DNA of 50,823 bases from Gemmatimonadota bacterium (GTDB taxonomy: Bacteria > Gemmatimonadota > Gemmatimonadetes > Gemmatimonadales > GWC2-71-9). Positions 5,561 through 45,703 of the stretch are shown one piece after another. Numbering within the stretch: the first letter of the stretch is position 1; each line of letters begins with the position of its first letter. The stretch covers positions 1-50,823 of the forward strand of contig JAEUJI010000323.1 in assembly GCA_016794805.1 (NCBI GenBank), given 5' to 3'. Both the position numbers and the translations under genes were made by a program. The notes under the pieces were generated by a model. The model searched no databases, had not been told where the DNA came from, and saw only the letters and a list, made by a program, of their open reading frames with translations.

Positions 5561-5890
5561 TCAGCGGCCCCCGCCGAGCGCGAAGCCCATGAGGGCCTCC
5601 CCATCCAGGGGGGTGTCCGTGGCCAGTACCTCCGCCGCCGGGTCGGCGCCGCCCTGCGGTTCCCGGCCCAGCGCCAGCCAGAAGCCGAGGGCCGCGCCCA
5701 GCACCAGGGCGGCGGCGATGCCCGGCCGCGCCCAGCCGGCGAGGACATGCCACAGCGAGTCCCGCTCCGGGAGCCGGGCGAGGACCGACGCGGTGAAACC
5801 GGTGGCGTCACCGGCGTCCAGCAGCGCCCGGAGCTCGCGCCCGAGCGCCGGGTCGCGGGACAGGTCGAATGGTTCCTCGTGCATGCTCAC
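5561..5890 (-). CDS. Short single-TM protein, probable anti-sigma factor (CnrY-like position)
   Basis: 109 aa (GTG start at 5890 overlapping the sigma stop by 4 nt; a second start, ATG at 5884, is equally possible). The strong AAGGAGGGG stretch upstream overlaps the sigma 3' end. An N-terminal acidic/helical cytoplasmic part of about 50 residues precedes one TM segment (about 56-74). A short periplasmic tail follows. There is no HxxxCxxC zinc anti-sigma motif, unlike the other two anti-sigma genes in this window. Position directly between the ECF sigma gene and a CnrX-like gene, plus topology, suggests it holds the sigma factor at the membrane. No sequence family is recognised, so the function is inferred from context. 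Confidence 0.6.
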   Translation of the reverse strand: MSMHEEPFDLSRDPALGRELRALLDAGDATGFTASVLARLPERDSLWHVLAGWARPGIAAALVLGAALGFWLALGREPQGGADPAAEVLATDTPLDGEALMGFALGGGR

Positions 5891-6438
5891 CCCTCCTTCA
5901 GTGGCCGCAGCAACTCCCGCAGCTTCCGCTTCGCGTGGAACAGTTCGGACCGGACGGTGCCTTCCGGCACGCCCAGCAGCTGGCCGATCTCGCTGTGGGC
6001 ATACCCCTCGACTTCAAACAGGACCAGCACGACCCGCTGCCGCTCCGGCAGCGTCGCGAGCGCGGCATCCAGCCGCTCCCCCGTCACGCGCCGGTCCGCC
6101 ACCTGGTCCGGCGGCGGTCCGGCGTCCGCCCGGTCGAACGGCACCGGCTCGGTGGTCCGGACCCGGCGCCGCCGGGCGAGGTCCCGGGCCGCGTTGACCG
6201 CGATCCTGGCCAGCCACGGTCCGAGCGCCTGCGACGGCTGGAATCGGTCCAGCGCGTTCCAGGCTGAGAGAAACGCCTCCTGGGCGGCATCGTCGGCGTC
6301 TGCCGCGTGGCGCAGGACTGCCCGGGTCAATCGCCGGACCATGGGGGCGTGTGCCTCCACGAGAGACCCGAATGCGTTCCGGTCTCCCTGCAGCGCCTTG
6401 GTTACCAGTTGGGCTTCGGACTCAGCGGAGATACGCAC
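5887..6438 (-). CDS. ECF RNA polymerase sigma factor (RpoE-like)
   Basis: 183 aa from the GTG at 6438. Region 2 spans about 15-90 (DADDAAQEAFLSAWNAL at 47-63, then ARIAVNAARDLARRRR). Region 4 spans about 125-177 with helix-turn-helix HSEIGQLLGVPEGTVRSELF at 148-167. The GTG was preferred to the ATG at 6591 because it is preceded by CGAGGA and by a TACAAT -10-like box at 6481-6486, which would put the transcript start downstream of the longer start. It heads an eight-gene minus-strand operon with a membrane anti-sigma candidate, a periplasmic sensor and a complete ABC efflux system, so it probably activates its own operon when the envelope is stressed. Confidence 0.9.
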   Translation of the reverse strand: MRISAESEAQLVTKALQGDRNAFGSLVEAHAPMVRRLTRAVLRHAADADDAAQEAFLSAWNALDRFQPSQALGPWLARIAVNAARDLARRRRVRTTEPVPFDRADAGPPPDQVADRRVTGERLDAALATLPERQRVVLVLFEVEGYAHSEIGQLLGVPEGTVRSELFHAKRKLRELLRPLKEG

Positions 6439-6463
6439 CGTCCTCGGAAATCGTTGACCGCCG

Positions 6464-6486
6464 CCCCCGTTCGCGGGGGAATTGTA
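6464..6486 (-). promoter_or_regulatory. -10-like box and leader hairpin upstream of the sigma operon
   Basis: On the minus strand a TACAAT hexamer (6481-6486) is followed at once by an inverted repeat, CCCCCG / CGGGGG with a 4-nt loop (6464-6479). The GTG of the sigma gene then follows 25 nt later. No good -35 is visible at 16-18 nt, which fits an atypical or activator-/ECF-dependent promoter. A second dyad, CCGCCC/GGGCGG (6487-6505), covers the spacer. Inference only. Confidence 0.35.
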
Positions 6487-6723
6487 CCGCCCCGCGACAG
6501 GGCGGAGCGAATCAGTCCGGTGCCCGGAGCAAGTCGGCAGCCCGGCACCGAGCCTGAAGTTGTTGCGAGGCATGAGAATACGCGAGATCAACCGGCCGCT
6601 CCGGGGGTCGCGCAGGGCTTGCTACTGGGGTGGTCCGAAGCCCCGACTACGACCGGCGCCCCGTACGGCGAGGCGGGCCAGGAGTTACTCCGGATTCACC
6701 CAGGGCCTCAGGGAGTGGAGCCC

Positions 6724-22615: not shown

Positions 22616-23158
22616 TTACTTGAAGCCGAACGACACGCCGACCGTCAGCGGAATGAAGGTGGTGCTGCTGCCGCTGGTGGACACCGAGAGGTACCGGCTT
22701 TCGACGAAGATGTTCGCATCGCTGCCCGCCTTGAACTTCAGGCCGGCGCCGCCGCCGAACGCGACCTTGGACTCGCTGATGCTCCCGCCGCCGCCCTCAG
22801 CCTTGACCTGGAAGTACCCCACGCCACCCAGGATGTACGGCTTGAGCCCGCTGCCGGTCTTGATGTCGTAGGTCACGCTGCCCATGCCGCCGGCGAGCTT
22901 GAACTTCGCGTCGACATTCGCGTCGACCTTGTTCTGTCCGTAGAAGAACTCGCCGCGGAACCCGAGCCCCGACGGAAGCCCATAGCCCAGGTGGGCCGTG
23001 CCGTGCCAGCCGAGCTTGGCCGCGTCGCCAAAATCGCCCAGCGGCACCGTGAGTCCACCGCCCACGCCGGCGCTCACCTTGGACTGGGCGCTCAGTGAGC
23101 TGGTGGCTGCCTGCGCGGCAAGGGCGACGGCGAACAGGGAAAGCACAAGGCGCTTCAT
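22616..23158 (-). CDS. Outer membrane beta-barrel protein (OmpA/OprF-like, 8-strand type)
   Basis: 180 aa with a signal peptide (cleaved near LSAQS). The mature chain alternates glycine/aromatic strands (SAGVGGGLTVPLGDFGD at the start), and the final strand ends VGVSFGFK, close to the aromatic barrel-assembly signal. Size fits a small eight-stranded barrel. It is a tandem paralogue of the next gene upstream (same length, same first strand xGLGGGxTVPL and GYG/GDFGD turn). Preceded by AGAGGAGCAGG. Function unknown; probably surface-exposed or structural. Confidence 0.8.
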   Translation of the reverse strand: MKRLVLSLFAVALAAQAATSSLSAQSKVSAGVGGGLTVPLGDFGDAAKLGWHGTAHLGYGLPSGLGFRGEFFYGQNKVDANVDAKFKLAGGMGSVTYDIKTGSGLKPYILGGVGYFQVKAEGGGGSISESKVAFGGGAGLKFKAGSDANIFVESRYLSVSTSGSSTTFIPLTVGVSFGFK

Positions 23159-23237: not shown

Positions 23238-23780
23238 TCAGAATCCGCCGAAAGTTACGCCCGCCATGACCGGCGCAAACTGCGGTTTCTGACCATCGGT
23301 GTAGACATTGACGTATCGGGCCTCCGCGTATAATGCGACCGCCCGGCCCCCGAAGGAGAATCCCGCGCCCGCGTTGATCGCGGGATTGGTGTCGCTCACG
23401 TCCCCGAAGTTGGGGCTCGAGGTCGTGGTCTTGAGGTACCCGCCACCCCCGAAGACATAGAACCGGTTGGGCGAGCGCCTGGCCCCGAACTGGAACACCA
23501 GGCTGGCGAGCCCGCCGGCCTGGGTCTGGCGTCCCGAGATCGCCGAGAGGCTGTTGCGGGCGTACAGCCCGTCGAGCCGCAGGCCGAGGGAGGCGCTCGC
23601 CGCCGGGAAGAACGAGAGGCTGGCGTTGCCCATCCAGCCCCGATCCACGACATCGCCATAGCCACGAAGGGGAACGGTGACGCCGCCACCGAGGCCGAGG
23701 CGGATATCACCCTGGGCGTGGGCGGTGGTGGGCAGCAGCAGCAGGAACAGGAGGGCAGCCCGGGGGAAGCGGGGGCGCAT
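23238..23780 (-). CDS. Outer membrane beta-barrel protein, paralogue of the neighbour
   Basis: 180 aa from the ATG at 23780 (MRPRFPRAALLF), giving a normal signal peptide cleaved at AHAQG; the longer frame to 23813 adds a non-signal extension. The first strand LGLGGGVTVPLRGYGD and C-terminal VMAGVTFGGF show the same small-barrel architecture as 22616-23158, and the two lie 79 nt apart on the same strand. Sequence between matching strands has diverged strongly, so this is an old duplication. Function unknown. Confidence 0.8.
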   Translation of the reverse strand: MRPRFPRAALLFLLLLPTTAHAQGDIRLGLGGGVTVPLRGYGDVVDRGWMGNASLSFFPAASASLGLRLDGLYARNSLSAISGRQTQAGGLASLVFQFGARRSPNRFYVFGGGGYLKTTTSSPNFGDVSDTNPAINAGAGFSFGGRAVALYAEARYVNVYTDGQKPQFAPVMAGVTFGGF

Positions 23781-23880
23781 GGTACACCTCGGTAGAGGAG
23801 TCGAGGATACCACGGTGCCGGGACGGGAGGAGTGCCGCCGTAACCGGAGTCACAATGCGGCGTGGATCACCAGCGGCGGA

Positions 23881-24915
23881 CTACTGGACCCGTTGCACCA
23901 GGCGCTTGAGAGAGTCCACTGGGGCTTGGGCCACCACCGAGATGCGGTATCCCTCCTCATCCAGCCAGGTCGCAACGCTCACACCGGTGGATGAGGTGCC
24001 GTAGGCGGTCTCGCCATTCTCGAGCGCCGGATCATCAATGGGCCGGAAGCCGGAAGAATCGGCGGGGATGAGCTGCTGGTCCACCAGGATCCGCCCGCCA
24101 TCCGGCGCCCGGTACACCACGCGCACCACGTCGAGCCCCCGCTGGGCCCCGGGGACGGCGGAGGCCGGCCCAATCTCCACGTGGTCCGGCTCGAGTCCAT
24201 TGAGCAGGCGCAGGCGCCCGCCCAGCCGGAGGCTCGCCTCGCCGCTGCCAACGGCGCGGAACCGGGGGGAGACCGGAATGGAGGCGCTGGAGGTGGCGGC
24301 CGGATTCGGCGTGGTCGCGGGGGTGGGCGCAGGCGCGCTCGGCCGCGTCGAGGTGTTCGGCGCGGTCCGGGCGCCGGCCGGGGGGTTGACCCGGACGGGG
24401 TCGGGTCGCGGGCTGGCATTGCGCGCCGCCTGCGCGTCGGACGCGGGAGGCGGCGCCGCCGAAGGACCGGTGGCTGGCACGGGTGCGGTGGTCGCGCCGG
24501 CCGCAATGCCATCGCGTCGCTGCGGTGCCGGGGGGGCGCCCCGACCTTCCCGCGACGCGACGGCCATGCCCTCGTTGGGCTGGCGGAGGCGGCTCGCCCC
24601 ATAGCCCACCACCAGCGCCAGGATCACTGCCGCTACCCAGAGGAGCGTGGTGATGTCCGGGGCCCAGTTGCGTTCCTGGACGTCATCGGTGGGAAGGAGC
24701 ACCAGCCCCCCGGGCGTCACGGTCGCGGCCGGGCCGGCCTCGTGCGCCAGGTCAGGGAAGTGCTCATCGACTTCGCGGTAGTTGTCGCGCCACTCCTCCA
24801 GCCGCCGGGCGCAGGCGCGACAGGACTCGGCGTGGCGCTTGATCCGCGTCACCTCGCCGCCGCTGGCGCTCCCGTCAATCAGCTTTTCTAGCAGCCGGTC
24901 GTTCAAGTGGAACAT
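23881..24915 (-). CDS. Zinc-finger anti-sigma-like membrane protein, second copy
   Basis: 344 aa from the ATG at 24915 (MFHLNDRLLEKLIDG). The N-terminal cytoplasmic domain carries HAESCRAC, the H-x3-C-x2-C zinc anti-sigma signature (residues about 29-36). One TM segment follows near 92-108 (TTLLWVAAVILALVVGYG), then a long Pro/Ala/Thr-rich periplasmic linker. The C-terminal domain of about 110 residues (LGGRLRLLNGLEPDHVEIGP ... DSLKRLVQRVQ) is shared with the preceding gene 24953-26029. It lies 37 nt after that gene, so this operon has one sigma factor but two anti-sigma-like proteins. It may sense a different signal or regulate in series. Confidence 0.8.
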   Translation of the reverse strand: MFHLNDRLLEKLIDGSASGGEVTRIKRHAESCRACARRLEEWRDNYREVDEHFPDLAHEAGPAATVTPGGLVLLPTDDVQERNWAPDITTLLWVAAVILALVVGYGASRLRQPNEGMAVASREGRGAPPAPQRRDGIAAGATTAPVPATGPSAAPPPASDAQAARNASPRPDPVRVNPPAGARTAPNTSTRPSAPAPTPATTPNPAATSSASIPVSPRFRAVGSGEASLRLGGRLRLLNGLEPDHVEIGPASAVPGAQRGLDVVRVVYRAPDGGRILVDQQLIPADSSGFRPIDDPALENGETAYGTSSTGVSVATWLDEEGYRISVVAQAPVDSLKRLVQRVQ

Positions 24916-24952
24916 GCCGAACAATCTACCTTCCAGGTCCAGCCGACGCAGG

Positions 24953-26029
24953 TTACCGGACGCGCTGCAGCAATCCCCGCAGCGAATCGGTGGGCAGAAA
25001 ACCCGTAAGCGCAAGTCGGAAGCCGTGTTGATCCAGCCACCGTACGCTCTGCATACCCTGGGCCGGGACCGTCAGGACGGTGTCACCCGGGAGCAGGGCT
25101 GCCGCCCCCACCCCGGCCGCTGAGCGCTCCTCAGCCTGGGTACGCTGCTGATCCAGCCACAACTCCCGGCCCGGCGGATCTTCGTACACCACACGCACCA
25201 CGGGGATGCCCGGTTCCGCTCCGGGGACGATGGACCCCGGGCCGGTGAGCACCCGCTCCGGCTTGAGTCCATCCAACAGACGGATGGTCCCCCCGAGGAT
25301 TCTCACCGCCCGCTCCATGGTGACGGGCTGGAACCCCATGTCGGTCAATCGGTTACCAGACTTTGCGGAGCTCGCCGACTGGTCCGCCGCTGCCAGTGTC
25401 CCGATGGGTGGTGCCGCCACGACGGTCGGTGCCGGGGAAGGGTCGGGAGTCGGCGTCCGGGCTCGGAGGTCTGCCATCTCTTCGCGAGTGGCGTCGGGGG
25501 CCTGAAGCGTCCGCTCCCCGTCGCGCCGCGGCGCCGCTTCCAGGGTGTTCTGCCGGGCAAGCTCAGCCGGAGGCCCTGCGGCGGGGGCGGTCGTGGGTGC
25601 CGCAGGGGCAATGAGCCCGGTCGTGGCAGCCGCGCCCGAGTCGAGGCCAGCGGGCGTGGCGCCGCCGGGCTCCTTGCTGCTGGCGACGTCAGTCGGGATG
25701 GCCTGTCGGTCCATCCCACGCACCAGGTATCCGAGGCCCAGGGCGGCCACCAGGGTGGCGGCCCATCCGAGCGTCCGCCACGGCAAGGGGCGACGGGTGG
25801 CCACGGCGCCCGCGCCCCTGGGCTGCACCGATGGAAGCGGCGCCGGCTGCCGCGGCAGCTCGATGCCCGTGACCAGGGCATCCGCCTCCACGGAATACGC
25901 CCTGATCTCGTCATACAGGCCGCGACAGTCGGCACAGGCGGCGAGGTGGGCCTCGGCCTCCCGACGGGCGCTGGCGGTGAGTTCCCCGTCCAGCAGGCTG
26001 GTCAGCTGTCCTTCATCAAGATGCGACAT
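24953..26029 (-). CDS. Zinc-finger anti-sigma factor, membrane-anchored
   Basis: 358 aa. The start at 26029 (MSHLDEGQLTSLLDGELTAS) overlaps the sigma gene by 14 nt. The zinc anti-sigma motif AHLAACADC (H-x3-C-x2-C) is at about 28-36. A single TM lies near 88-103 (WAATLVAALGLGYLV). The periplasmic part is a low-complexity Ala/Pro/Thr linker and then a C-terminal domain (RILGGTIRLLDGLKPERVLT ... DSLRGLLQRVR) that is homologous to the end of 23881-24915. It should bind the ECF factor encoded just upstream and release it on an envelope signal sensed by the C-terminal domain (inference). Confidence 0.85.
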   Translation of the reverse strand: MSHLDEGQLTSLLDGELTASARREAEAHLAACADCRGLYDEIRAYSVEADALVTGIELPRQPAPLPSVQPRGAGAVATRRPLPWRTLGWAATLVAALGLGYLVRGMDRQAIPTDVASSKEPGGATPAGLDSGAAATTGLIAPAAPTTAPAAGPPAELARQNTLEAAPRRDGERTLQAPDATREEMADLRARTPTPDPSPAPTVVAAPPIGTLAAADQSASSAKSGNRLTDMGFQPVTMERAVRILGGTIRLLDGLKPERVLTGPGSIVPGAEPGIPVVRVVYEDPPGRELWLDQQRTQAEERSAAGVGAAALLPGDTVLTVPAQGMQSVRWLDQHGFRLALTGFLPTDSLRGLLQRVR

Positions 26030-26519
26030 GGCGGTCCTTCCCCTGCGCGCGGTATGCCTCCACCAGGCGCTTGCGCGCCCGGCAGATCGTGGTTCCGATC
26101 GCGCCCTTGGCGAGCCCGGTGGCGGCCGCGATTTCGTCGTAGTCGAAGCCCTCGGCCTTGAGCAGCAGCACCTCGCGGTCGAGGTCCCGCAGTTCGGTGA
26201 GGGCGGCCTGCACGGCCTTGGTCTTCTCGTTCCGTTCGAAGTCCTCGTCGGGTGGTCCGGCGCTGGTGGCGCTCTCTCCCTTGAGCAGCTGCAGCCGGCG
26301 GCCCTGCCGCACCGCCCGCCGGCCGTCGTCACGCACCAGGTTGAGCGCCACCGCAAACAGCCAGGGCCGGGGATTGTCCGGCGGGGCGGCGAGCGCGCGG
26401 GCGAACACCTCCGCCGCCAGGTCCTCGGCCCGGTCCTGGTCGCCCGTGCGGCGGTAGAGCATCCGCACGAGCGGCTGGTGGAACTGGGCGAACAGCTCTT
26501 CGATCGGCACGTGAGTCAT
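26016..26519 (-). CDS. ECF RNA polymerase sigma factor
   Basis: 167 aa. Region 2 lies at about 5-75 (AEDLAAEVFARALAAPPDNP, then WLFAVALNLVRDDGRRAV). Region 4 lies at about 105-160 with the helix-turn-helix YDEIAAATGLAKGAIGTTIC. The ATG at 26519 is 3 nt after the stop of the VIT-vWA gene, and the 3' end overlaps the anti-sigma gene. The order VIT-vWA, sigma, anti-sigma, anti-sigma implies that the sigma factor is transcribed with the secreted vWA protein. Confidence 0.92.
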   Translation of the reverse strand: MTHVPIEELFAQFHQPLVRMLYRRTGDQDRAEDLAAEVFARALAAPPDNPRPWLFAVALNLVRDDGRRAVRQGRRLQLLKGESATSAGPPDEDFERNEKTKAVQAALTELRDLDREVLLLKAEGFDYDEIAAATGLAKGAIGTTICRARKRLVEAYRAQGKDRHVAS

Positions 26520-26522
26520 CGG

Positions 26523-28694
26523 TTACCCGCGGAAATCCCGCACGAAGGCCCGCACTTCGGCCTCGCTCAGCGTCGCCTTGCCGCCGCCGCCGATGCGGAG
26601 GCTGGCCTTGCGCCCGGCGATCACCAGTTCATCTCCCACGCCCAGACTGCCCGCCAGTTCCGGGAGCGCCCGGGTCACGGCGAAGTACGCCGCGCTGTAC
26701 GGGGCGATGCTGAGCACCCGGAGGCTATCGCTGTGGCCGACGTCCGTCCAGACACCCTGCACCAGGTTGAACACCCGTCCCCCTGCGCGCCGCACATCGC
26801 GGCTCGAGCCGGAGAGCACTTCCAGCCGTGCGTCCGCCGCCTGGTCCGCGGCCGCGAGCGTGGTGGCGCGGGAGAGCTCGCCACTCGCCTTGGCTGCCTC
26901 GAAGGCCCGCAGCCCGGTCTGCGCCGAGGGGGCCGTGGCCGGCAGGGCGTTGCCCGCGCCGAGTGGGCCCTGGCCATCCTGCCGCTGCGCGACGACACCG
27001 GGTTCCTGCACCAGGTACGAGGTGTACTCGGTGAGGATGCCATGCCGCAGGCCGAGCTGGCGGATCTCGCCGATCAGGGCCTCGCTGCTGCCTTCGAGAC
27101 GCAGTTGCCGGTTGAGATCACCGATCCGGCGGGCGGCCCACAGCCGGGCGATGAAGCCGTTCCGGTCCTCGGTGGCCGGGAACACGGCCTGCGCGGTGAA
27201 GCGCTCACGCCGGCCGTTCCGCTCCCCCTCGAACACCACGACGCCGCTGCCCTGCCCGCGGTACCGGCCGAAGAGCACCAGTTCCTCGCCATAGAAGAGA
27301 TCGGGCAACTGGGCCGGCGAGAGGTCACGGAAGGTGACCGGGCTCTCGACCAGGCGCAGGTTCACCAGTGCGGGGCGCCGGAGCTTGCCCATCAGGTTGC
27401 CCATCGCCACCTCGACGTCGCCCTCGGGCGGCACGTACTCGGCGGTGCCGCGGCCTTCCCTGGCGAGGCGGTCGAGCAGGTAGGTGTTGACGTCGTGACC
27501 GACGCCCACGGTGAACACGCGAGCCCGTCCGATCCGGCTGGCCGCCATGGCCGCGATGCGATCGGGCTGCGACTCCCCGACCGAGGGGATGCCATCGGTC
27601 ATGAAGAGGACCAGCGGGAGCCGTCCCTCCGGCACGGCGGTGCCAAGCACCGCCTCGAGCGCGCCGGCGATGTTGGTGCCGCCGTCGGCGTTGAGCCGGT
27701 CCACGAACGCGGTCGCCTCACGCAGGACGTCGGGGGTGGCGGGGGCCCAGCCATCGCGGAAGTGCGTGATACCGGAACTGAACGCCACCAGCCGGAAACG
27801 GTCGCCCCGGTGCAGGGTGCCGAGCGCCTGCCGGATTGCCGCCTTGGCCTGTTCCAGCTTGGTGCCGGACATGGAGCCGGAGACATCCACCACGAAGGCC
27901 ACGTCCCGGGGTACCACGGAGCCGGCCTCGGACTCCGCCGGTGAGAGGAGGAGCATGGCGTAGCCGTCCTCGCCGCCGGGGGCGTGCGCCAGCACGCTGG
28001 TGCCGATGAGTCCGCGCCGGAGCGGCAGCAGGATCTCGATGTCGCCACCGGTCCGCGGATCCACCCGCAGCTCCAGACGGCCGCCGTCGCGCCGGACGGT
28101 CAGGGGATGGGTCGGGGAGTAGGGGGCGCCGTAGGCGTCCTGATCGGCCGCGGAGAGCTGCCAGCTGCCGGCCTCGCCGCCCCGGGTGCCCAGCGCGTAG
28201 CGGACCCGGAGGGCGTCACCCGCCCGGTCGAGGAGCTGGGTGTAGCGCAACACCACCTTCCGGGTCTCGCCCGGCTGGATTGGAAAGACCTGGGCCCGGA
28301 CCAGGCCATGGCCGGCGAGGGTGAGCAGGGCCGGGTCCTTCTGGCGCCGCACGATCTCCTCGTAGATCCCGCGAGCCTGATCGGCGTTCAGCATCTCGCC
28401 CTTGAGCTCCTGGTCTCCCATCCAGAGGGAGAAGTTCTGGAACACCGCCTCGCCGGGCAGCGGATAGAGGTAGCTGCCCTCGGCGATGGCGCCGCCCTGA
28501 TTCTGGAAGCGTTCCTCCACTTCCACCCGGGCGACCCGGCCTTCGATGACGGTGCGGACTTCGGAACCCACCCGGACGACGGCGGCGGGGGTGCGAATGG
28601 CAACACGGGGACGTTCGATGTCAATCCAGCCCTGGGCGGTCGCCGGGGTGGACGCGAGCGCGAGCGCGAAGGCGCTCAGGAGCAAGTGACGCAT
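26523..28694 (-). CDS. VIT and von Willebrand A domain secreted protein
   Basis: 723 aa from the ATG at 28694, with a signal peptide cleaved near TATAQG. A VIT domain spans about 30-155 (EGRVARVEVEERFQNQGG, then YEEIVRRQKDPALL). A vWA domain spans about 262-440 with an intact MIDAS (DVSGSMSG at 270-277, later MTDGIPS). The C-terminal 250 residues include a segment with a Pro/Ala/Gln-rich linker and a final domain I do not recognise. VIT-vWA proteins bind metal-dependent protein partners outside the cell or in the periplasm. It is the first gene of a sigma/anti-sigma operon, which suggests it is part of the signal-sensing surface machinery. Confidence 0.9.
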   Translation of the reverse strand: MRHLLLSAFALALASTPATAQGWIDIERPRVAIRTPAAVVRVGSEVRTVIEGRVARVEVEERFQNQGGAIAEGSYLYPLPGEAVFQNFSLWMGDQELKGEMLNADQARGIYEEIVRRQKDPALLTLAGHGLVRAQVFPIQPGETRKVVLRYTQLLDRAGDALRVRYALGTRGGEAGSWQLSAADQDAYGAPYSPTHPLTVRRDGGRLELRVDPRTGGDIEILLPLRRGLIGTSVLAHAPGGEDGYAMLLLSPAESEAGSVVPRDVAFVVDVSGSMSGTKLEQAKAAIRQALGTLHRGDRFRLVAFSSGITHFRDGWAPATPDVLREATAFVDRLNADGGTNIAGALEAVLGTAVPEGRLPLVLFMTDGIPSVGESQPDRIAAMAASRIGRARVFTVGVGHDVNTYLLDRLAREGRGTAEYVPPEGDVEVAMGNLMGKLRRPALVNLRLVESPVTFRDLSPAQLPDLFYGEELVLFGRYRGQGSGVVVFEGERNGRRERFTAQAVFPATEDRNGFIARLWAARRIGDLNRQLRLEGSSEALIGEIRQLGLRHGILTEYTSYLVQEPGVVAQRQDGQGPLGAGNALPATAPSAQTGLRAFEAAKASGELSRATTLAAADQAADARLEVLSGSSRDVRRAGGRVFNLVQGVWTDVGHSDSLRVLSIAPYSAAYFAVTRALPELAGSLGVGDELVIAGRKASLRIGGGGKATLSEAEVRAFVRDFRG

Positions 28695-28787
28695 GGATCC
28701 CTCATTGGCTTCAGGAGTCGGCCGGGGGATGCGCCGGGGGCCCACACTTGCACGGCGGGGCTGGACGGGGGGCGCGCGGAGAACAAC

Positions 28788-44198: not shown

Positions 44199-44243
44199 TC
44201 CGGGAGAGATCCGCCCGGGCTCACGCCTCGTTGCATTGCGCGG

Positions 44244-44284
44244 GGCCGGAGGGTCACTCCGGCCGCCGCCCCGGGTGCCGGGGC
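44244..44284 (+). terminator. Tandem hairpin terminators after the TonB operon
   Basis: Hairpin one is GGCCGGAG-N5-CTCCGGCC (44244-44264). Hairpin two is GCCCCGG-GTG-CCGGGGC (44268-44284), followed by GTTTGCGTG, the closest match to a classic Rho-independent signal in this window. They separate the TonB operon from the next sigma gene. Confidence 0.7.
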
Positions 44285-44321
44285 GTTTGCGTGTCCTGCT
44301 CTGGCGGCGCCTGCCGTCGAG

Positions 44322-44969
44322 GTGCGATCCTTGGCCGTGCCCGATTCCCAGCACAGATTGCCGCGCCCCGACGCCCCCGGCCCGCGCCTCCTGAGCGACG
44401 CCCGGGAGGCCAGTCTCGCCGCGGGGCTCATCGCCCGCGACGAACGCGCCCTGGTGCAACTGGTGGAGGTGGCGACGCCCTGGCTGCTGGCGGTGGCGCA
44501 GGCGATGCTCGCCGACCGCGACGAGGCCGAGGAGGTGGTGCAGGAGGCCTTCACGATCGCCTGGCGCCGGGTGGACCTGTTCGACCAGAGCAGCGGCCGG
44601 CTGATGCCGTGGCTGCTCCGCATCACCCGCAATCGGGCCATCGACCGGCTGCGGGGACGGCGCCGCCGGGTGGACAAGGCGCGCCGGCTCCTGGCCCTCG
44701 GCGGGCTGGGGGCGGGCAGCGCCGCTCCCGTGGAACCGGACGAAGCCGGCACGCCCGGCTGGCAGGTGCACCGGGCCGTGCATGCCGCGCTCGCCGCGCT
44801 CCCTCCCGACCAGCGCGACGTGGTGCAGCTCGCCTATTTCGAGGGACTCACCCATTCGGAAATCGCGGGGCGGCTCGCCATCCCGCTCGGCACCGTCAAG
44901 ACGCGCCTTCGGCTTGCCTTTGACAAGCTGCGGGGCGGACTCTCCTCGCTCAAGGACTGGGTCGTATGA
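44322..44969 (+). CDS. ECF RNA polymerase sigma factor
   Basis: 215 aa; GTG start at 44322 is uncertain, and a GTG at 44337 would trim five residues. Region 2 is about 45-115 (DEAEEVVQEAFTIAWRRV, RITRNRAIDRLRGRRRR) and region 4 about 155-205 with helix-turn-helix LTHSEIAGRLAIPLGTVKTR. An ATGA overlap links it to its anti-sigma gene. The receptor upstream lacks the STN domain that FecI-type systems need, so control of the receptor by surface signalling is unlikely. Confidence 0.9.
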   Translation: MRSLAVPDSQHRLPRPDAPGPRLLSDAREASLAAGLIARDERALVQLVEVATPWLLAVAQAMLADRDEAEEVVQEAFTIAWRRVDLFDQSSGRLMPWLLRITRNRAIDRLRGRRRRVDKARRLLALGGLGAGSAAPVEPDEAGTPGWQVHRAVHAALAALPPDQRDVVQLAYFEGLTHSEIAGRLAIPLGTVKTRLRLAFDKLRGGLSSLKDWVV

Positions 44970-45703
44970 TCGCGCACGACTGGTTTGTCGAACATCGCAC
45001 CGATTTCGTCGCCCGCACCCTCGAGCCCGACGAGGAGCGGAGCTTCACCGAGCACCTCGGCGGCTGCGCAGACTGCCGGGCCGCGATCGCGCGGCTGGAG
45101 CAGGAACTGGCCTGGCTTCCCATGGGGCTTGCCCCGGTACCGCCCCGCCCCGGACTCACCCGGTCGCTGGTGGCCGGCGCGCTGGGGGAGCGCCGGGGGC
45201 CGCCCCGGTGGCTGGTGCCGTTCGCCCTGGCGGCCTCGCTGGCCCTCAGTCTTGGCGCCTGGTTCTGGGCCCTGGGTACGACCCGGGCGTTCGAGCGGCA
45301 ACTGGCGCAGGAGCGGGGACGGCTGGTGGAGGAACTGGCCATGACTCGGGACACCCTCGGCATCATCCGGGAGGCGGGGATGGTGCGCCACGCGAGCATC
45401 AGCATGGGGAAGAAGCAGGGCGGGATGCTGATCTTCGCCGACGAGCGCACCCACCGCTGGAATGTGGTGGTCTACGGGCTGCCGGCGTCCGAGCCGGGGG
45501 AGGTGTGCCAGTTCTGGTTCATCACGGACTCGGGGATGGTGCGCGGCGTGGAAGTGAAGACTGATGGCCGGAGTCCCGCGCTGCTGACCCTGCCGATGCC
45601 GCCCAATGCCCGGAACGTGATGGGCGCGGCGCTGACCATCGAGCCGATGGGCGCGACCGGTGCCGCGCCCGCCGGTGTGGAGCTGGCACACCTGATGTTG
45701 TAG
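44966..45703 (+). CDS. Zinc-finger anti-sigma factor (RskA-like)
   Basis: 245 aa. Anti-sigma motif EHLGGCADC (H-x3-C-x2-C, about 29-37). TM helix near 82-100 (PFALAASLALSLGAWFWAL). The C-terminal 130 residues match RskA-type extracytoplasmic domains (VVYGLPASEPGEVCQFWFI, GALTIEPMG-like end). It sequesters the upstream ECF factor. The extracytoplasmic part is expected to be sensed by proteolysis (family knowledge). Overlaps the sigma gene by 4 nt. Confidence 0.9.
   Translation: MIAHDWFVEHRTDFVARTLEPDEERSFTEHLGGCADCRAAIARLEQELAWLPMGLAPVPPRPGLTRSLVAGALGERRGPPRWLVPFALAASLALSLGAWFWALGTTRAFERQLAQERGRLVEELAMTRDTLGIIREAGMVRHASISMGKKQGGMLIFADERTHRWNVVVYGLPASEPGEVCQFWFITDSGMVRGVEVKTDGRSPALLTLPMPPNARNVMGAALTIEPMGATGAAPAGVELAHLML

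Follow-up and report, generated by a model that had tools for sequence, protein, structure and literature searches.

Gene layout and zinc domains

The window analysed here, a stretch of 50,823 nucleotides, is contig C262 in an assembly of 3.9 Mb; among named genomes, the closest to it are metagenome genomes of Gemmatimonadetes/Gemmatimonadales. Across 28694-23881, read on the minus strand, it carries a VIT-vWA protein, an ECF sigma factor and two anti-sigma proteins, here called AS1 and AS2, in this order:

28728..28753, minus strand: GTGCAA-N15-GCATC, predicted promoter of ECF type, 34 bases upstream of the VIT-vWA start codon; conserved, its spacing fixed, before the VIT-vWA genes of families f1, f3 and f9, exact match in the own genome
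26523..28694, minus strand: secreted VIT-vWA protein, 723 aa, leader of the operon; signal peptide, metal-site motif DVSGSM intact
26016..26519, minus strand: ECF sigma factor, 167 aa; assigned by Pfam and by its relatives
24953..26029, minus strand: AS1, a 358-aa zinc anti-sigma whose start and the sigma stop overlap
24956..25339, minus strand: C-terminal (outer) domain of AS1, with an RseB-C-like predicted fold
23881..24915, minus strand: AS2, a 344-aa zinc anti-sigma paralogous to AS1, with a diverged helix 4
23884..24264, minus strand: C-terminal (outer) domain of AS2, homologous to that of AS1

Gene calls, Pfam and the signal peptide agree with the initial annotation, which had placed the sigma gene directly upstream of the anti-sigmas and a secreted VIT-vWA protein at the head of the operon. 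The leader matches VIT and VWA_3 (both E 2e-20), and the sigma factor matches sigma regions 2 and 4. Because the start of AS1 overlaps the sigma stop and AS2 begins 37 bases past AS1, the four genes likely form one transcript. Downstream of AS2, a pair of similar ORFs stands in tandem (22616-23158 and 23238-23813, minus strand); both have signal peptides and resemble small outer-membrane barrel proteins. Further ECF sigma genes of the window are found at 44199-45079 (plus strand), followed by another zf-HC2 anti-sigma, and at 5890-6621 (minus strand).

AS1 encodes an HxxxCxxC domain beside an ECF sigma gene, as expected of a zinc anti-sigma, and would bind and inhibit that sigma. The motif is intact in both proteins, and Pfam matches zf-HC2 in AS1 (4e-7) and in AS2 (6e-4; borderline, with 20.2 bits in hmmscan against a cut-off of 22.2, and 23.6 in the genome search). 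As the initial annotation had stated, the two consecutive genes share homologous C-terminal domains, with the motifs it had quoted, and their linkers, both Pro/Ala-rich, are dissimilar. AS1 and AS2 can be aligned end to end (BLASTP E 3e-30), and their C-terminal domains are 40-41% identical. A chance likeness is excluded, since relatives have the same domain and a second species of the genus has the tandem copies. In each protein a single hydrophobic segment separates the zinc domain from the C-terminal domain, which is therefore predicted to lie outside the cytoplasm. The N-terminal HxxxCxxC domain and the adjoining ECF sigma gene are features that AS1 shares with the class I zinc anti-sigmas (ASDI/ZAS; RsrA, ChrR, RsiW), many of which also have one membrane segment. 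Unlike these, the present system has a new outer domain and, in AS2, a second copy in tandem whose helices 1 and 4 have changed.

Distribution of the operon and its predicted promoter

The order VIT-vWA, sigma, anti-sigma recurs in relatives within families f1, f3, f7 and f9, single-contig genomes included. Of 298 genomes, 121 contain VIT, almost always as a single copy. At 18 of 20 further VIT loci, mostly taken from genomes that gave no strict promoter match, the sigma gene adjoins VIT, and 17 of these 18 also have a zf-HC2 anti-sigma. Judged by gene content and order, the operon of VIT-vWA, ECF sigma and zinc anti-sigma is a conserved feature of the class Gemmatimonadia. The open-access literature searched yielded no earlier description of the system, and nothing relevant on VIT-vWA with an ECF sigma or on DUF4349 with a sigma factor. 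The closest described protein type is the marine sortase target protein (TIGR03788; E 1e-84), in which VIT also precedes vWA in a secreted protein. However, the VIT-vWA protein scores 285 against a cut-off of 552, has no visible sorting signal or C-terminal anchor, and is fixed to an ECF/anti-sigma pair.

Several genera without VIT keep sigma and anti-sigma. At such loci (L075, L080, L083, L085, L088, L090-L092) the sigma gene is often preceded, on its own strand, by the gene of a hybrid histidine kinase, recognised by eye through a REC-like end. A kinase in the place of VIT-vWA would possibly represent an exchange of partners.

Upstream of the VIT-vWA genes of families f1, f3 and f9 we found a conserved motif with fixed spacing, GTGCAA-N15-(G/A)C(A/G)TC. 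A blind search of 298 genomes with its strict form, GTGCAAS-N14-RCRTCTCC, gave 115 sites, spread over 83 genomes, while the reversed motif used as a control gave 14 (site totals counted by hand). Reading downstream from 91 distinct sites, we met VIT-vWA at 32, the sigma gene at 12, a DUF4349 lipoprotein at 11 and one secreted family without a Pfam match at 9, so that four gene types stand behind 64 of the 91. Since the regions upstream of VIT-vWA supplied the motif, the matches there are partly circular; those before DUF4349 and the secreted family are independent. Since DUF4349 is a gene of zero to one copy in the ten genomes checked, its chance recurrence behind the promoter is not credible. 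The remaining 27 sites include, by eye, about 7 genes of SIMPL/DUF541-like and about 4 of carboxypeptidase-regulatory-like type, with one Pfam check for each type, as well as one sigma gene whose start is truncated where its contig ends.

The SIMPL/DUF541-like exported proteins belong to L228, L255, L256, L264, L274, L276 and L279. Serpin genes follow the promoter in two f9 genomes (L203, L204; G221, G348), with one confirmed by Pfam. The secreted family without a Pfam match (TSLTIYNDGR...) was encountered repeatedly, at C124:19606 of the own genome (L195, L215) and at L208, L211, L216, L218, L219 and L249-L254.

The own genome (G000) holds four sites of the form GTGCAA-N15-GCRTC, and its predicted targets are the operon, the secreted protein (C124) and the DUF4349 lipoprotein (C370). 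A site before a Wzz gene (C179) was discarded as probably due to chance: it lacks the TCTCC/TCCCC extension, and no target of this kind occurred among the relatives' sites read.

In genera without VIT, the same promoter precedes the sigma gene. The operon and a recurring set of targets thus have a promoter motif in common, as expected of an autoregulated ECF operon. Because this conserved promoter stands before VIT-vWA, the sigma gene and the recurring targets, the sigma factor probably transcribes its own operon together with a small envelope regulon. For the same reason, and because genera without VIT keep the promoter before sigma, VIT-vWA looks like an output or feedback part of the system. 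Its role as a surface input, proposed in the initial annotation, is not supported. The predicted regulon connects bacterial VIT-vWA proteins and DUF4349 lipoproteins with the control of envelope stress.

A similar promoter is shared by sister ECF lineages in which the genes are ordered alike, and the own genome encodes a close sigma paralogue on C304 (L066), with its own zf-HC2 gene beside it and no VIT-vWA. Single targets may therefore belong to either sigma.

The outer domain and its predicted fold

Compact forms of the outer domain have about 80 residues: a helix, (I/L)RL(I/L)xGLxPxR, VRV(V/I)Y, LxLxQ, then a strand and a helix at the end. The domain is present in 27 of 101 genomes of the family sample, where some of the weakest matches are doubtful, and in 41 of 395 genomes of the phylum sample. 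Surveyed together with the sigma, as the initial annotation had suggested, it is tied to the sigma gene by position in the relatives. We detected no significant sequence match in Pfam, NCBIfam or PDB, and none in Pfam for 25 members of the domain. A scan of the own genome with the model of the MucB/RseB C-terminal domain (PF17188) was negative at E <= 10. The domain may also resemble DUF4367.

The AlphaFold2 models of the AS1 outer domain (mean pLDDT 89.3, pTM 0.84) and of a shorter homologue (mean pLDDT 93.5, pTM 0.87) both placed RseB first in a Foldseek search against the PDB, with probabilities of 0.94-0.99. The top RseB matches have E 0.03-0.2, not significant alone, and TM 0.45-0.50, the aligned part of RseB not being given. 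For the shorter homologue, RseB chains took ranks 1, 2, 3, 5 and 7; for AS1, MucB appeared at rank 7. A small RseB/MucB profile brought the last strand and helix into register with the outer domain, a weak match (P 0.01). A direct sequence link to RseB by hhalign with a single sequence was rejected, as it gave a spurious match of 20 columns only. The models are suggestive of a fold closest to RseB/MucB, possibly that of the C-terminal domain.

The initial annotation had proposed a new sensor family and had asked for a known anti-sigma family as evidence against it. At the sequence level, none was found in Pfam or NCBIfam, and the domain is new as a sequence family. Its novelty as a sensor is less complete, as the nearest predicted fold is that of RseB/MucB, whose C-terminal domain is known as an anti-sigma partner. 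In MucB/RseB, helix alpha-I of the anti-sigma pairs primarily with the C-terminal domain, and the N-terminal domain is the predicted lipid binder (PMC7400510). No counterpart of the LolA-like N-terminal part of RseB was seen in AS1 or AS2, and the domain forms the C-terminus of the anti-sigma instead of a separate periplasmic protein. From the models, we infer that Gemmatimonadia carry a docking domain of RseB/MucB-C type within the anti-sigma.

The RpoE-RseA-RseB system of E. coli and the AlgU-MucA-MucB system of Pseudomonas are comparable in having an ECF sigma held by a membrane anti-sigma and an envelope-type regulon (here predicted), and in the predicted likeness of the outer domain to RseB/MucB. 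They differ in that RseB/MucB is a separate two-domain protein, whereas here only a C-terminal-type domain, without a significant sequence match, lies inside the anti-sigma. Furthermore, the zinc anti-sigma differs from RseA, and a VIT-vWA protein leads the operon. If the fused RseB-type domain is real, the RseA/RseB two-protein switch would here be one protein. An ECF system that spans a whole class in a phylum with few studies gains a predicted promoter, predicted target genes and a predicted sensor fold, which makes its regulon directly testable in a cultured Gemmatimonas.

The anti-sigmas of related ECF lineages (L153-L155, L157) end in distant versions of the outer domain, seen as weak profile matches. 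The domain may therefore be a module that zinc anti-sigmas of Gemmatimonadota have in general.

The second anti-sigma and the proposed mechanism

We saw AS2 in four genomes, which represent three genera (G000, G033, G055, G008), always in tandem with AS1. Its sequences form one clade (support 99), which the tree does not place firmly relative to AS1. By this phylogeny AS2 is an old duplicate, and several independent duplications were rejected. It is also, by its substitution pattern, under purifying selection: dN/dS is 0.27-0.63 over its parts and the gene persists in three genera, and a decaying pseudogene was rejected as well. Between two species of the genus, the outer domain is 65% identical in AS2 versus 50% in AS1, with dN/dS of 0.27 versus 0.46 (simple Nei-Gojobori, dS near 1, hence rough). 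The AS2 zinc domain is 55% identical (dN/dS 0.57), which leaves the outer domain as the best conserved part of AS2.

The zinc domain of AS2 departs from AS1 in the helices predicted to contact sigma. Against the AS1-type profile, helix 1 of the four AS2 proteins scores 14.0, 21.6, 0.0 and 12.5, and helix 4 scores 1.6, -7.7, -14.8 and -8.8; the AS1-type values, obtained by leave-one-out with helix borders that we assigned ourselves, are 44.5 +/- 6.7 and 39.1 +/- 8.3. AS2 has the HxxxCxxC motif, but its helix 1 is reduced and its helix 4 near or below zero against the type that goes with this sigma. As a point of reference, helix 1 carries predicted contacts to sigma region 4, and helix 4 most of the predicted contacts to region 2 (PMC7406223). 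In all four species seen, the AS1-type helix 4 sequence is gone from AS2. Because of these departures, AS2 is more than a duplicate of AS1 whose hold on sigma has stayed as it was. Most likely, it shares the outer input and grips this sigma differently, grips another sigma, or grips none, which makes it a natural test case for an anti-sigma changing or losing its sigma contact.

The initial annotation had favoured AS1 and AS2 both holding this sigma and integrating two outer signals, with VIT-vWA as the surface input. The tandem genes, probably on one transcript, the zinc motif intact in both, the homologous outer domains and the purifying selection on AS2 are consistent with such an arrangement. 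We nevertheless consider it rather unlikely, as the helix 4 scores of AS2 fall far from the AS1 type, most predicted sigma contacts sit in that helix (PMC7406223), and VIT-vWA stands behind the operon's promoter and is missing in some genera that keep the rest.

The same loss of the AS1-type helix 4, next to a well-conserved outer domain, would fit an AS2 that binds no sigma and acts as a decoy or co-receptor sharing the outer signal with AS1. This, too, we regard as doubtful: the zinc motif is retained, the zinc domain has a dN/dS below 1, and helix 4 varies even inside anti-sigma groups (PMC7406223), so that its divergence is no proof of lost binding. A more elaborate form, with AS2 as a sigma-blind pseudo-anti-sigma under selection, decoy or co-receptor for AS1, and VIT-vWA, itself made in the response, binding the RseB-C-like outer domain and closing an extracytoplasmic feedback loop, appears quite improbable.

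Taken as a whole, the system is likely an autoregulated extracytoplasmic stress system, in which the outer domain of AS1 serves as an RseB/MucB-C-type docking module in cis. AS1 would hold the sigma factor at the membrane through its zinc domain, and an envelope cue acting on its RseB-C-like outer domain would release it, perhaps by proteolysis of AS1, by analogy with RseA and MucA. Once freed, the sigma factor would transcribe its own operon and, beyond it, the genes of the DUF4349 lipoprotein and of a few further exported proteins. VIT-vWA would then be an exported product of the response, possibly a feedback part, and not an obligatory sensor. AS2 would share the outer input, its sigma contact being changed, redirected or lost.

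A redirected contact would mean that AS2 controls a different sigma, either the C304 paralogue or another of about 30 region-4 matches in the genome. Both sigma-contact helices are changed consistently in the AS2 clade, a close paralogue lies on C304 and ECF-like genes are numerous in this genome. On the other hand, the sigma gene on C304 adjoins a zf-HC2 anti-sigma of its own, and AS2 stays in tandem with AS1 in four genomes. We consider this alternative unlikely, slightly more so than the two simple ones above. The C304 sigma may share promoters with the operon's own sigma or be the partner of AS2.
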